From contig PLLI01000070.1 in assembly GCA_003140915.1 (NCBI GenBank), positions 1 to 10,385 on the forward strand: DNA of 10,385 bases, read 5' to 3'. Positions 1 to 4,097 of the stretch are shown here, piece after piece. The stretch comes from Candidatus Omnitrophota bacterium (GTDB lineage: Bacteria; Omnitrophota; Gorgyraeia; 2-01-FULL-45-10). How positions within the stretch are numbered: position 1 is the stretch's first letter; the number at the start of each line of letters is the position of its first letter. The translations under genes and the position numbers were made by a program. The notes under the pieces are model-generated. The model searched no databases. It saw nothing but the letters and a program-made list of their open reading frames with translations, and had not been told where the DNA came from.

Positions 1-553
1 CCAAAGCGCCCTCCATGCCCGCTATCACAATAATGACATTCGCGCGCTCTAAAACTTCCTGTTTACCCAGGAGCCGGTGTATCCCTGCAACGCCAACGTC
101 GCACAATAACTCGACCGGGTTACCCATTATCTCCAGCGTGGCCTTGGCCTCAGCTGCTACCGGCAGGTCGGATGTGCCCGCTGTTACGATAAGGACGGTC
201 CCGTTCTTGAGCACCGGCTTATCTTTCCTGTAACTGATGATCCGCGCCTTCTTGTCAAATTTTATTTCCGGATAGGATTGTTTCAGTTTCCGGAACGCTT
301 TCTCGTCGGCATGCGTGACAAGGAGGAGCCCATCATGCGCAATGATCTTTTGCGATATCCTGACAACCTGCTCCGTTGTCTTCCCCTTTCCAAAGACAAC
401 TTCGGGAAAGCCTCTCCGTAATTTTCTGTGATTATCGACTTTGGCAAATCCGAGGTCCTGATAAGGCAGGTTTTTCAAGGTCTTGCGTACCTTCTCAGGC
501 GAGATGCGGCCCGCCTTGAAGTCATCCAGCATCCTGGTGATCTTATCTGTCAT
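1..553 (-). CDS. larB: LarB, nickel pincer cofactor biosynthesis protein (3' end outside window)
   Basis: Reading back from an ATG at 553 gives 184 codons with no stop before the window edge. LarB carboxylates and hydrolyses nicotinic acid adenine dinucleotide, the first step towards the nickel-pincer nucleotide cofactor of lactate racemase and related enzymes; it acts in the cytoplasm. Seen in the translation: an N-terminal helical part with DFKAGRISPEKV (11-22) and LPYQDLGFAKVDNHR (29-43), then RRGFPEVVFGKGKTTEQ (46-62), and the PurE-like core with TAGTSDLPVA (124-133), DVGVAGIHRLL (152-162) and VIAGMEGAL (176-184). These are characteristic LarB (PurE-related) signatures. Family members are about 250 residues, so roughly 65 C-terminal residues are missing, probably including the reactive cysteine. 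The start lies 8 bases after the stop of the upstream HTH-anchor gene, without a clear Shine-Dalgarno sequence, suggesting translational coupling. larC and larE are not in the window. Confidence 0.9.
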   Translation of the reverse strand, partial: MTDKITRMLDDFKAGRISPEKVRKTLKNLPYQDLGFAKVDNHRKLRRGFPEVVFGKGKTTEQVVRISQKIIAHDGLLLVTHADEKAFRKLKQSYPEIKFDKKARIISYRKDKPVLKNGTVLIVTAGTSDLPVAAEAKATLEIMGNPVELLCDVGVAGIHRLLGKQEVLERANVIIVIAGMEGAL

Positions 554-561
554 CTTGAACT

Positions 562-960
562 TTAGGTTTTTAAGATCAGGTACATTAGAAAAACAATGAG
601 TAAAAATGAGATGATGTAAAAATCGTTGAAATAGAAAAAGTCTTTCACCCGTTCGGCGACCGTATAATCATACTGGCGCGTTGAGGGCTCCTTTCGCTTG
701 ATGTCCCTCTCCATCTGTGTATAAGGATGGGTGATCCGGCCTTTCTGGTCCAGGGTAGGCTTCGCGTGTTCCGGTTCCTTCTTCTCGAACTCGGAGATCT
801 CGGACCTTATTGCGTCTATCTGCTCTTTTCTGAACCTCAGGAAGGTGTCGCCTATCTTATAGGCGGGTATCTCTCCGGCGTCCACGAGACGCTTCACCTC
901 TTCCTCGGATATCTTGAGATAGTCCGCGACCTCTTTTATGCTAAGTAATTTTTCCGGCAT
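562..960 (-). CDS. Small membrane-anchored excisionase-type HTH protein
   Basis: 132 residues; I know of no named gene for it. Residues 5-52 form an excisionase/MerR-like HTH module (HTH_17 type): LSIKEVADYLKISEEEVKRL is the helix-turn-helix, followed by the wing AGEIPAYKIGDTFLRF and a last helix. Residues 53-105 are a charged, probably flexible linker. Residues 114-131 are one hydrophobic helix (YIISFLLIVFLMYLIL) ending two residues before the stop, which makes it a C-terminal tail anchor. Basic residues before the helix (RVKD at 104-107, KRK at 88-90) favour a cytoplasmic HTH. The HTH resembles the C-terminal domain of the bactofilin encoded 9 bases upstream (shared S, E, A, YL, IP, GD, RF and ID positions). 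The ATG at 960 has no evident Shine-Dalgarno sequence, so coupling to the upstream gene is likely. The role is unknown. It may anchor a partner protein (as RodZ does MreB) or DNA to the membrane. Confidence 0.85.
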   Translation of the reverse strand: MPEKLLSIKEVADYLKISEEEVKRLVDAGEIPAYKIGDTFLRFRKEQIDAIRSEISEFEKKEPEHAKPTLDQKGRITHPYTQMERDIKRKEPSTRQYDYTVAERVKDFFYFNDFYIISFLLIVFLMYLILKT

Positions 961-969
961 TGTCTTGGT

Positions 970-1509
970 TTACTTTATTTTCCCTTCCGCGACCCACTCA
1001 TCGATCCTGCTACGGTCGAACCTCCAGATGTCCCCTTCCTTCATCCCGGGTATCTTTCCGGAATTCACCCACTCGGAAATAACACCGACCTCGACCTCAA
1101 GATATTTCGCCAGCTCTTCGGCCGACATCATCATGCCCTGTTTATGCGCCTCGGACTTGGAATGGGCGAGCATCTTGCAGTTGCCTTCAAAGACCGCTCC
1201 CTCGGCGATGCTTAAGAGCGGGGCGGTGATGTCGCCGACAACGCAGGCCGGGGATATCAGTTTAAGTTCTTTCAGCGCGCTTATATTGCCGTTGATTTTC
1301 CCGGCAACGATGATGGACTCACCGGTAATATCCGCGTTCACCGAAGCATGTTCCCCTATCATCAGATTGCCCTTTGTGTTCAATATCCCCTCGAACCTCC
1401 CGTTAATGCGTAAATTCACAGGGTCTTTGAAGGAAAGTGATCCCTGCATCGAGGCGTCAACATCCAGCACCTTTTCAACCTCATGCTTCTTATCCTTTTT
1501 CCCCATCAT
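970..1509 (-). CDS. Bactofilin with C-terminal HTH domain
   Basis: 179 residues from the chosen ATG. Residues 18-113 are a bactofilin (DUF583) beta-helix: short repeating strands with glycine turns such as LRINGRFEG, LMIGEHASVNADITG, IIVAGKINGNI and GDITAPLLSIAEGAVFEG. Bactofilins polymerise without nucleotide and act as cytoskeletal scaffolds for envelope growth, stalks or chromosome positioning. Residues 128-176 are a separate excisionase-type HTH module: MSAEELAKYLEVEVGVISEW, then GKIPGMKEGDIWRF, then a final helix. A short hinge with MMM joins the two. Most bactofilins end in a short disordered tail, so this fusion is unusual. A TTG further upstream (1536) would add nine residues, but the purine-rich AGGGGG six bases before the ATG at 1509 supports the shorter form. 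The next gene repeats the HTH and adds a membrane anchor, suggesting that the two proteins work together. DNA binding is possible but unproven. Confidence 0.88.
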   Translation of the reverse strand: MMGKKDKKHEVEKVLDVDASMQGSLSFKDPVNLRINGRFEGILNTKGNLMIGEHASVNADITGESIIVAGKINGNISALKELKLISPACVVGDITAPLLSIAEGAVFEGNCKMLAHSKSEAHKQGMMMSAEELAKYLEVEVGVISEWVNSGKIPGMKEGDIWRFDRSRIDEWVAEGKIK

Positions 1510-1515
1510 GCTGCA

Positions 1516-1521
1516 CCCCCT
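1516..1521 (-). promoter_or_regulatory. Ribosome binding site of the bactofilin gene
   Basis: On the minus strand AGGGGG lies six bases before the ATG at 1509. This decides between that ATG (with a second ATG directly after it) and the in-frame TTG at 1536, which has no such site at a suitable distance. Confidence 0.6.
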
Positions 1522-1522
1522 G

Positions 1523-1539
1523 TTTTTGCGAAGCAAAAA
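1523..1539. repeat. Short perfect inverted repeat in the mgtC-bactofilin gap
   Basis: TTTTTGC-GAA-GCAAAAA: two perfect 7-base arms around a 3-base loop. It lies in the roughly 36-base gap between the MgtC-type gene and the bactofilin gene, the longest gap in the cluster, just upstream of the bactofilin ribosome binding site. In the transcript (minus strand) it would fold as UUUUUGC-UUC-GCAAAAA. The stem is AU-rich and weak, and no U-run follows it, so it is not a classical terminator. It could be an mRNA processing site, a weak attenuator or an operator, or it could be chance. Confidence 0.4.
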
Positions 1540-1545
1540 GCATAT

Positions 1546-2217
1546 TTATTCCGTCTCCCACGTGACGTGCTTGACGCCTTCCAGATGGGCCAAGTCATCT
1601 ATCAACTGGTCGGCGGTCCTCAACTTATATAACTTCAGGCCTATTTTCAGCATCATATTGGCGCCGTCTCTCGTCCTCTCCGCTTCGAAATCCGTGATCT
1701 CGGAGTTGCGGCCCGCGATCGTCTCTCTTATGGCCTTCAACTGGTCGACGCCCTCTTTCGTTTCGATAATAAGTGTCTTATACCAATCTTTGCGTATCAT
1801 GGTGTGCTCTAATCTCGAAAAGAGCATGAGTGTTATCATCGTCAATATCGTAGTTATAATGGATCCGAAATAGAACCCGGAGCCTACCGCGAGGCCTATG
1901 CCGGCAACTACCCAAAGGCTTGCCGCGGTCGTGAGGCCCCTGACCGCCGACCTGGAATGCATTATCGTCCCCGCCCCGAGGAACCCTATGCCGGTGATTA
2001 CGCCCGCCGCTATCCTGGCCGGGTCCGGAGAGATCCTGGAAGAATAGATGTCGAAGATGTGCATTGAGGTGAGCATTATAAGTGTCGAGCCGACGCATAA
2101 AAGGATGTGGGTCCTGAAGCCGGCTGCCCTGCCGTGGAATTCGCGTTCGAAACCGATAACACCGCTGAGAAAGGCGGCAAATATTAAACGAAATAATATT
2201 GTCCAATTACTTAACAT
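1546..2217 (-). CDS. MgtC/SapB family membrane protein
   Basis: 223 residues. The N-terminal two thirds hold about five hydrophobic segments (roughly 5-23, 36-55, 68-88, 95-113, 117-135), with the family signatures GFEREFHGRAAGFRTHILL (22-40), ARIAAGVITGIGFLGAGTI (67-85) and VRGLTTAASLWVVAGIGLAVG (92-112). The C-terminal part (about 147-222) is a soluble ACT-like domain, as in many MgtC relatives. It is an inner-membrane protein. Salmonella MgtC supports growth at low magnesium and in macrophages and affects the F-type ATP synthase, but the biochemical role of chromosomal MgtC/SapB homologues in free-living bacteria is not settled. The ATG at 2217 is supported by a strong GGAGG six bases upstream and overlaps the end of tsaD by 11 bases. 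A magnesium-sensing leader is not evident, because the upstream sequence is the tsaD coding region. Confidence 0.9.
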   Translation of the reverse strand: MLSNWTILFRLIFAAFLSGVIGFEREFHGRAAGFRTHILLCVGSTLIMLTSMHIFDIYSSRISPDPARIAAGVITGIGFLGAGTIMHSRSAVRGLTTAASLWVVAGIGLAVGSGFYFGSIITTILTMITLMLFSRLEHTMIRKDWYKTLIIETKEGVDQLKAIRETIAGRNSEITDFEAERTRDGANMMLKIGLKLYKLRTADQLIDDLAHLEGVKHVTWETE

Positions 2218-3248: not shown

Positions 3249-4097
3249 CTATTTAACCATTTCCGAAAGATAGACGAACTCTATCCCGTCTTTAGCCATC
3301 TGAGGCATTATCCTGGCCAGCACCGCTGCCGTGAGCTTCCTGTCATGGCATATAGCTATGGCCCTCCCTCTCTTCACGGCGAGCTTCTGGAGCTCGGCAA
3401 GTTGTTTCTCGATCGCCACGGCGTTATTATCATTATCCAGAAAAACGTCCCGCTTCGCGAACCGCAGGCCCGCGGCCCCGGCACATTCGCGGCATACCGA
3501 TTTTTCAGAGGTCAGGCTGTCGAAAAAGTACAGGTTATGTTTCTTTAAATACGCGAATATCCCGGACATAAGCTCTCTGTCTTCCGTTGCCTTCGAACCC
3601 ATGTGGTTGGAGACGCCGCTCAGGCCCGGAACGGACTCCATATCTTTCGCAAGCCGCGCGGTGACCTCTTTCCCGGTCTCTCCCTGTTTTATCGTATCGG
3701 GCTCTTCCTTCACATCTCTCCTGTGCGATTCGAGCGGCAGGTGCAGTATCACTTCATCTCCGTGTTCCTTGGCAGCTATCGCCACGTCGCGGGAACGGCG
3801 CAAGTTCGGCAATACGGAAAACGTGAGAGGTTCTTTGATGCCGAAGAACGCTCCAAGGTTATTCGTGTTGTAGCCGAAATCATCTATGACTATCGCCACT
3901 TTGGCGCCCCGCGGCCTTTTAATAACAGCGGCCGGCGCAGGTGCCGCGGCCATCTTCTTCGCGGGCGCCGCGAACTTTACGGCTTTCCCAGTCCGCACTT
4001 GCTTCTCGCGGATAACCTGCGTTCTTTGCCCCAGAAAGAAGGCGGCGAGAACCAGAACTATGACCGCTAACGCTATCAGGACAGCTCTTGCCTTCAT
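3249..4097 (-). CDS. Divergent polysaccharide deacetylase (DUF610/YibQ family)
   Basis: 282 residues from the ATG at 4097. Residues 5-23 are a signal anchor (VLIALAVIVLVLAAFFLGQ), followed by an Ala/Pro/Lys-rich linker to about residue 65, so the catalytic domain should lie in the periplasm. The rest is a NodB-like barrel of the COG2861 type: VAIVIDDFGYN (67-77), FSVLPNL (93-99), VILHLPLES (116-124), LSGVSNHMGSKATED (159-173), YFFDSLTSEKS (190-200), RDVFLDND (216-223) and GRAIAICHDR (244-253). The Asp-Asp pair and the His residues are candidate metal ligands. The substrate is unknown; family members are assumed to act on envelope polysaccharide. The gene follows the S41 protease with a 1-base overlap (TGATG), a pairing seen in other bacteria and suggesting joint envelope work. 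A GTG at 4100 is an alternative start but lies only two bases from the Shine-Dalgarno sequence. Confidence 0.9.
   Translation of the reverse strand: MKARAVLIALAVIVLVLAAFFLGQRTQVIREKQVRTGKAVKFAAPAKKMAAAPAPAAVIKRPRGAKVAIVIDDFGYNTNNLGAFFGIKEPLTFSVLPNLRRSRDVAIAAKEHGDEVILHLPLESHRRDVKEEPDTIKQGETGKEVTARLAKDMESVPGLSGVSNHMGSKATEDRELMSGIFAYLKKHNLYFFDSLTSEKSVCRECAGAAGLRFAKRDVFLDNDNNAVAIEKQLAELQKLAVKRGRAIAICHDRKLTAAVLARIMPQMAKDGIEFVYLSEMVK

Follow-up and report, generated by a model that had tools for sequence, protein, structure and literature searches.

Bactofilins form filaments through their beta-helix domain, and RodZ, which has an HTH_25 domain and a periplasmic part, is a binding partner of MreB. 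The known bactofilins, including BacA of Caulobacter, BacNOP of Myxococcus and CcmA, combine the beta-helix polymer domain with a basic N-terminal peptide, and the consensus of the bactofilin membrane-targeting peptide is given as MFSKKKK (PMC12448750). Their C-terminal region is described as binding partners (PMC12364344; PMC12448750): it binds SpmX in Asticcacaulis (PMC12364344) and, as cited in that article, the PadC–ParA complex in Myxococcus. BacA of Caulobacter recruits the bitopic protein PbpC, which in turn supports the attachment of BacA to the membrane (PMC12448750). Winged helix-turn-helix (wHTH) domains are also reported to bind proteins. In BldC multimers, F21, V23, W31 and R22 of one subunit (the head) contact L11', I40', T42', L43', G44' and E16' of the next (the tail), and the R30A mutation essentially abolishes DNA binding (PMC5859096); head-to-tail pairing is reported for both RdfS and BldC, in RdfS even without DNA (PMC11963761, PMC5859096). 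CbpM, a MerR-like wHTH protein without DNA-binding residues, binds the protein encoded upstream in its operon (PMC4063869).

We analysed a window, i.e., the whole stretch of 10,385 nucleotides, from the genome of a Candidatus Omnitrophota bacterium (G000, a 1.16 Mb assembly that is 79% complete). Here, a bactofilin with a C-terminal wHTH is followed by a second wHTH protein ending in a membrane helix, which we refer to as HTM. The features were as follows:

970 to 1509, minus strand: bactofilin with C-terminal winged HTH, 179 aa plus stop (PF04519 and PF12728).
1483 to 1509, minus strand: N-terminal peptide MMGKKDKKH, a hydrophobic start followed by lysines, resembling the bactofilin membrane-targeting peptide.
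1174 to 1470, minus strand: bactofilin beta-helix domain, residues 14-112 (PF04519, E 4.3e-24).
982 to 1131, minus strand: bactofilin winged HTH, residues 127-176, acidic (PF12728 HTH_17, E 4.4e-11).
961 to 969, no strand: intergenic gap of 9 bases between the bactofilin stop (970-972) and the HTM ATG (958-960).
562 to 960, minus strand: HTM, a winged HTH, linker and C-terminal membrane helix, 132 aa plus stop (PF12728).
778 to 948, minus strand: HTM winged HTH with extended last helix, residues 5-61 (AlphaFold2 model).
859 to 861, minus strand: HTM Tyr34 codon; the residue is aromatic in 235/237 HTMs adjoining a bactofilin.
613 to 642, minus strand: HTM motif DFFYFNDFYI at the membrane border, residues 107-116.
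568 to 624, minus strand: predicted HTM membrane helix, residues 113-131 (AlphaFold2), ending one residue before the C-terminus.
1546 to 2217, minus strand: MgtC-family membrane protein directly upstream of the bactofilin (PF02308, 6.1e-40).
2 to 553, minus strand: LarB, of nickel-pincer cofactor synthesis; score 169.2 bits (cut-off 175), the gene being truncated at the window edge.

Both open reading frames of the pair lie on the minus strand, where the gene order is tsaD, mgtC, bactofilin, HTM and larB, after gatCAB and others; MgtC and LarB were identified by profile, whereas tsaD, gatCAB, ksgA, pdxA, an S41 protease and a deacetylase were named by eye. The initial annotation had described an HTH, a linker and a C-terminal helix encoded 9 bases from an HTH-tailed bactofilin, and Pfam matches, coordinates and helix prediction agreed with this description. 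Among the best 120 of 2285 and 756 matches, the close homologues with an organism name belonged to Candidatus Omnitrophota/Omnitrophica. Neither an HTH-tailed bactofilin nor its pair with HTM was found in the literature searched, which comprised open-licence PMC articles, in part as best-ranked titles and abstract starts. The MgtC-family protein additionally showed a weak ACT-like match at its C-terminus. The bactofilin and HTM genes of the window lie in one reading frame that is interrupted by a single TAA, and the same frame with one stop between the genes occurred in 29/237 pairs. Despite the shared frame, there was no sign of recoding, and we rejected read-through or fusion of the two proteins. 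The apparent single fused frame in locus L103 was likewise rejected, as it is joined through masked bases only.

The window bactofilin resembles the known members in its polymer domain and basic N-terminus. Its PF04519 match scored 85 bits against a cut-off of 27.9, its solved relatives are BacA (2n3d) and the bactofilin 6ria, and no second bactofilin was found in the genome, which is 79% complete. We modelled the two proteins with AlphaFold2 as one joined chain, in which the stop between the genes was read as Gly. Bactofilin residues 11-110 formed strands (block pLDDT 91-98), and the elements of its HTH came in the same order as in a winged HTH. The flanks of known bactofilins are predicted to be disordered (PMC12364344), whereas in each of the 164 bactofilin-bearing genomes the Omnitrophota bactofilin ended in a winged HTH, 160 by profile and 4 by reading, one of the latter spanning masked bases. 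Per-position composition across 214 relatives revealed L137-E138-V139-W147 as the conserved face of this domain. With the start Met chosen by position, at least two K/R at positions 3-8 were present in 232/233 paired bactofilins, and 152/233 also had a hydrophobic residue at position 2-3. Because these basic and hydrophobic N-termini resemble the known targeting peptide, HTM is probably not the sole membrane link of the filament; given a targeting-like N-terminus of its own, the bactofilin may attach to the membrane without relying on HTM.

HTM matched HTH_17 at residues 5-50 (E 1.8e-12), and its AlphaFold2 model (mean pLDDT 85, pTM 0.49) placed a helix at the membrane border (101-111) before the membrane helix. 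The best solved structural match of the model was BldC, and the matches included RacA, Xis and the CbpM complex 3ucs. The winged HTH of HTM is of the MerR/BldC type. The most conserved part of the protein was DFFYFNDFYI together with R42, the invariant columns in 81 sequences being R42, D107, F108, F114 and Y115. A Kyte-Doolittle window of 19 residues reached at least 1.6 within the last 40 residues in 235/237 paired HTMs, and the mean net charge was +2.0 in the 30 residues before the helix and +0.08 after it (229 sequences). Judged by sequence, these properties fit a C-terminally anchored (tail-anchored-type) protein with a single predicted helix and its N-terminus inside. The proposed arrangement is similar to that of BacA and PbpC, in which the filament binds the cytoplasmic part of a single-helix membrane protein (PMC12448750); however, PbpC synthesizes cell wall and is recognized via a short N-terminal peptide, whereas HTM offers a winged HTH and contains no enzymatic domain. 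As a separate observation, HTM gave a weak match to the NCBIfam magnetosome protein MamR (19.3 bits, cut-off 100).

Linkage of the two genes was assessed in 193 evenly sampled Omnitrophota genomes using both profiles and the Pfam bactofilin model. The bactofilin profile was positive in 165 genomes, or 164 after removal of G029, whose match was a secreted repeat protein by eye. The loci of these 164 genomes had been picked by HTM (27), by bactofilin (133) or from a further set (4). HTM followed the HTH-tailed bactofilin on the same strand in 164/164 genomes, identified by profile in 158, as divergent copies by eye in 5 and cut by the contig end in 1. The corresponding numbers for the 133 loci picked by bactofilin alone were 127, 5 and 1. 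Thus, the co-occurrence in relatives that the initial annotation had proposed to search for was found in every bactofilin-bearing genome, one copy being cut at a contig end, and the pair is an Omnitrophota module with strong linkage within the surveyed genomes. Starting from HTM, 98 of the 109 loci L006-L114, which include 79 named loci and count some genomes twice, were paired with a bactofilin. Of the remaining 11, four were indeterminate, as L036, L058 and L065 lie at contig ends and L103 contains masked bases; the other seven had HTM without an adjoining bactofilin (L009, L012, L014, L040, L041, L046 and L047). In the small-genome member G004, an MreB-model match (contig 3, 34686-35441, plus strand) lay in a 644-aa frame approximately 0.8 kb upstream of the bactofilin (36263); judging tentatively by its length and the weakness of the match, this frame is probably DnaK.

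No bactofilin was detected by Pfam in 29/193 genomes, G029 included. A full HTM was encoded in nine of these (G007, G023, G083, G031, G172, G190, G176, G146 and G010), an HTM cut by the contig start in G153, and only the membrane-motif part in G085 and G029; in the other 17/29, several of them incomplete assemblies, the profiles found neither protein. In family f8, HTM was present in 12/13 genomes, and bactofilin was detected in 0/12 of these. The dependence is one-way: HTM was kept without bactofilin, and an HTH-tailed bactofilin was never seen without HTM. Since HTM is present where no bactofilin is detected, it must do more than anchor bactofilin and has another job. In family f7, a frame of 68 aa in two genomes and a longer frame in G029 contained a DFFYFYDYY-type motif and the helix and lacked the HTH; the fourth f7 genome gave no match to the HTM motif. 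The HTH-less HTM-like frames of this family were as follows:

L350, 2640 to 2843, minus strand: HTH-less HTM-like frame.
L318, 1417 to 1620, plus strand: HTH-less HTM-like frame.
L351, 3040 to 3453, minus strand: HTH-less HTM-like frame.

Because the motif and helix persist without the HTH in f7, the membrane part seems to be the core of HTM. These frames adjoined plsX (named by eye) in two genomes and other genes in G029.

We next considered how the two HTHs relate to each other. In a single comparison, the window domains were 36% identical across 45 aligned residues (E 2e-7). In a FastTree phylogeny of 48 columns, comprising 40 of 214 bactofilin HTHs and 40 of 222 HTM HTHs drawn at random, all 18 standalone HTH_17 proteins and BldC, the two kinds of paired domain separated into a clade each, both containing 40/40 of their sequences (support values 0.924 and 0.87). 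Mean identity between the two groups was 24.6%, and their mean identity to standalone HTH_17 from the same loci was higher, at 30.9% and 26.4%. By alignment and tree, the two HTHs are of a common family and not close kin; a recent duplication within the pair, which the initial annotation had raised, was not supported by these separate clades and low identity.

Our preferred reading, to which we give about an even chance, is that the pair is a filament and membrane-adaptor module in which HTM is bound by the bactofilin wHTH, the two wHTHs most likely touching directly in head-to-tail fashion. At the BldC head positions 21, 22, 23 and 31, the bactofilin HTHs carried L (100%), E (92%), V (73%) and W (89%), and their tail position 42 was acidic in 84%. 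At the tail positions, HTM carried L/M/F/Y at 11, Y/F at 40 (100%), I/V/L at 42 (99%) and G at 44 (86%). Thus, the head face is retained in the bactofilin HTH, and the tail face in HTM. In a covariation set of 237 pairs (effective number 94 to 207), the block of bactofilin head and HTM tail ranked 2-68 of 836 shifted blocks across 12 settings with the contacts of the BldC paper and 2-23 of 779 with an extended contact set that we chose ourselves. Entropy-matched nulls reached the observed value in 0.016-0.24 of draws for the paper contacts and 0.005-0.036 for the extended set. The reverse block (bactofilin tail and HTM head) was not raised in the DCA runs, although mutual information raised it somewhat (0.048-0.097 with the paper contacts, 0.014-0.074 with the extended set). 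Between the proteins fell 20-22 of the top 40 covarying pairs, a sign of noise and shared ancestry, and the top score of the real pairing (2.10 vs 1.24-1.70 in ten shuffled pairings) can also be explained by shared ancestry. In the strongest exchange, W147 occurred with L/M at HTM position L5 in 199/212 pairs, and L/M at W147 with F/Y in 23/25. We rejected this as a compensating change: it corresponds to approximately one event on the tree, and the comparison, with three independent pairs and the other trait along in 0.3, had no power. Without the non-W rows, the head-tail block ranked 15-58 of 836. Taken as a whole, covariation is no more than suggestive of the bactofilin-head and HTM-tail contact.

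Tyr34 of HTM was examined as a marker of bactofilin presence. In bactofilin-less family f8, Y34 and K35 were the only changed columns of 21 class-conserved ones, in all 12 HTMs. Meanwhile, Y34 was retained in bactofilin-less g2 (3/3), G146 and G153, and the position was T in both bactofilin-less G176 and its bactofilin-bearing relative L338, and L in L342. As a strict marker, Y34 was complete in 212 pairs and was broken in 2/237 after family f35 was added, and the strict form was rejected; as a marker it may be called suggestive. The joined-chain model had a local confidence of 86 and a pTM of 0.47 and gave no fixed arrangement of the two HTHs.

A rival reading is that both HTHs bind a common third protein, such as a cell-wall or membrane machine, and are co-recruited to it rather than touching each other. 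In its favour, the covariation for direct contact is weak. HTM occurs without bactofilin in 9 sampled genomes and its motif without the HTH in f7, so a further partner is probable. However, no tested third gene was equally linked: within 2.5 kb, tsaD lay upstream in 86/124 loci, the best of those tested, mgtC upstream in 76/124 and larB downstream in 42/113. In addition, the two HTHs are no closer to each other than to the standalone proteins, unlike what a shared binding surface would lead one to expect. We consider co-recruitment by a third protein rather unlikely.

The same neighbours bear on the idea that HTM and the bactofilin work separately and that tsaD, mgtC, bactofilin, HTM and larB are inherited as a block. 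Many genomes conserve the cluster, and HTM retains its position where the bactofilin is missing: MgtC precedes and LarB follows HTM in six bactofilin-less loci (L009, L012, L014, L040, L041 and L046), the context is MgtC-HTM-larB in g2, G146 and G176, and it is tsaD-HTM in f8. However, in 26/104 loci with 2.5 kb on both sides, the pair was present with none of eight tested neighbours by profile. Two genomes also encoded second bactofilins without the HTH, starting with MFKK:

L361 (G057), 1405 to 1875, minus strand: second, HTH-less bactofilin.
L248 (G138), 3595 to 4014, minus strand: second, HTH-less bactofilin.

HTM was absent beside both of them (2/2), which speaks against mere block inheritance, and we regard separate function as improbable.

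A further reading takes both HTHs as DNA binders, which would hold the chromosome at the envelope in a RacA-like manner or act as a membrane-bound regulator. Both domains have the BldC/excisionase-type fold (PF12728; PDB 6ama, 6amk and 4j2n) shared with the DNA-binding proteins BldC, RacA and Xis; the wing residue R42 of HTM, equivalent to Arg48 that touches DNA in BldC, was invariant in 212/212 paired HTMs, and the net charge of HTM reached +6 in some members. Against this, the mean net charge was -2.8 in the bactofilin wHTH (n=214) and +0.6 in that of HTM (n=222), compared with +6.5 in standalone HTH_17 proteins from the same loci, a small control set (n=18) that comes mostly from the family of the window, and +6 in BldC. 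Acidic residues (D/E) occupied the position of BldC Arg30 in 84% of bactofilin HTHs and 52% of HTM HTHs. Unlike BldC, the Omnitrophota HTHs thus lack the DNA-contact charge and are fused to a filament protein or a membrane helix; judged by sequence, neither has the electropositive DNA-binding surface of HTH_17/BldC-like domains. DNA binding appears to be lost clearly in the bactofilin HTH and likely in HTM. Because the basic surface is lost in both, shared DNA binding is unlikely, and we hold the DNA reading as a whole to be quite improbable. The suggestion of the initial annotation that the HTHs link the filament to the membrane fits and is plausible, whereas the form in which both occupy the same DNA site is disfavoured by the loss of charge. 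CbpM is a precedent for a wHTH turned protein binder that shares an operon with its partner and is encoded after it (PMC4063869); unlike HTM, it is a coiled-coil dimer, and the partner domain in CbpA is a J-domain and not an HTH.

Separately, we observed a small, standalone, strongly basic HTH_17 protein approximately 2-4 kb downstream of the pair in several relatives from the family of the window:

L041, 5214 to 5420, plus strand: standalone basic HTH_17 protein, with similar ones in L036, L038, L039, L043, L044 and L046.

The copy in L046 adjoins a histidine kinase (by eye). These standalone proteins served as the control for DNA-binding-type charge.

It is very improbable that HTM has nothing to do with the bactofilin and connects to MreB in the manner of RodZ, even though it combines a cytoplasmic HTH with a single helix and MreB was encoded in 18/18 genomes tested, with or without bactofilin, and elsewhere in the window genome: HTM belongs to a different HTH family (HTH_25, PF13413, was absent from its Pfam matches up to E 1), the predicted helix leaves no periplasmic domain after it, and a separate RodZ-type frame with HTH_25, a membrane helix and a C-terminal part occurs in the window genome (L316), PF13413 being above the cut-off in 22/25 genomes (19 at E 6.7e-13 or better). 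HTM is not RodZ, because it has the wrong HTH family and nothing after the helix and coexists with this RodZ-type frame. The parallel with RodZ drawn in the initial annotation holds as an analogy of a cytoplasmic HTH, one membrane helix and a filament link, and fails as an identity in view of the separate RodZ-type frame and MreB.

Returning to the filament and membrane-adaptor module, HTM would face the cytoplasm, with its C-terminal helix anchoring it in the inner membrane and the DFFYFNDFYI border motif probably forming its core and probably engaging something in the membrane. The bactofilin would polymerize via its beta-helix, and its C-terminal wHTH, without binding DNA, would dock HTM. 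The most likely contact would place the bactofilin head (L137, E138, V139 and W147) on the HTM tail (L5, Y34, I36 and G37), as in BldC multimers. HTM would then be collected along the filament, and the filament held at HTM sites; the cellular task would probably be envelope growth or shape. We also put forward, tentatively and with some doubt, a bolder version, in which a DNA-free heterotypic head-to-tail wHTH pair ties bactofilin to the membrane throughout the phylum, reusing the mode in which BldC and Xis coat DNA, and in which the adaptor also works without the filament.

How bactofilins select their partners at the membrane is understood for few proteins. In the large uncultured phylum studied here, gene order fixes a candidate partner in every sampled bactofilin-bearing genome. 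Since the two proteins have one type of compact module in common, two small soluble domains would suffice to test the contact. If true, this would be a clear example of DNA-binding domains turned into connectors of the cytoskeleton, and the pair offers a way into Omnitrophota cell biology.
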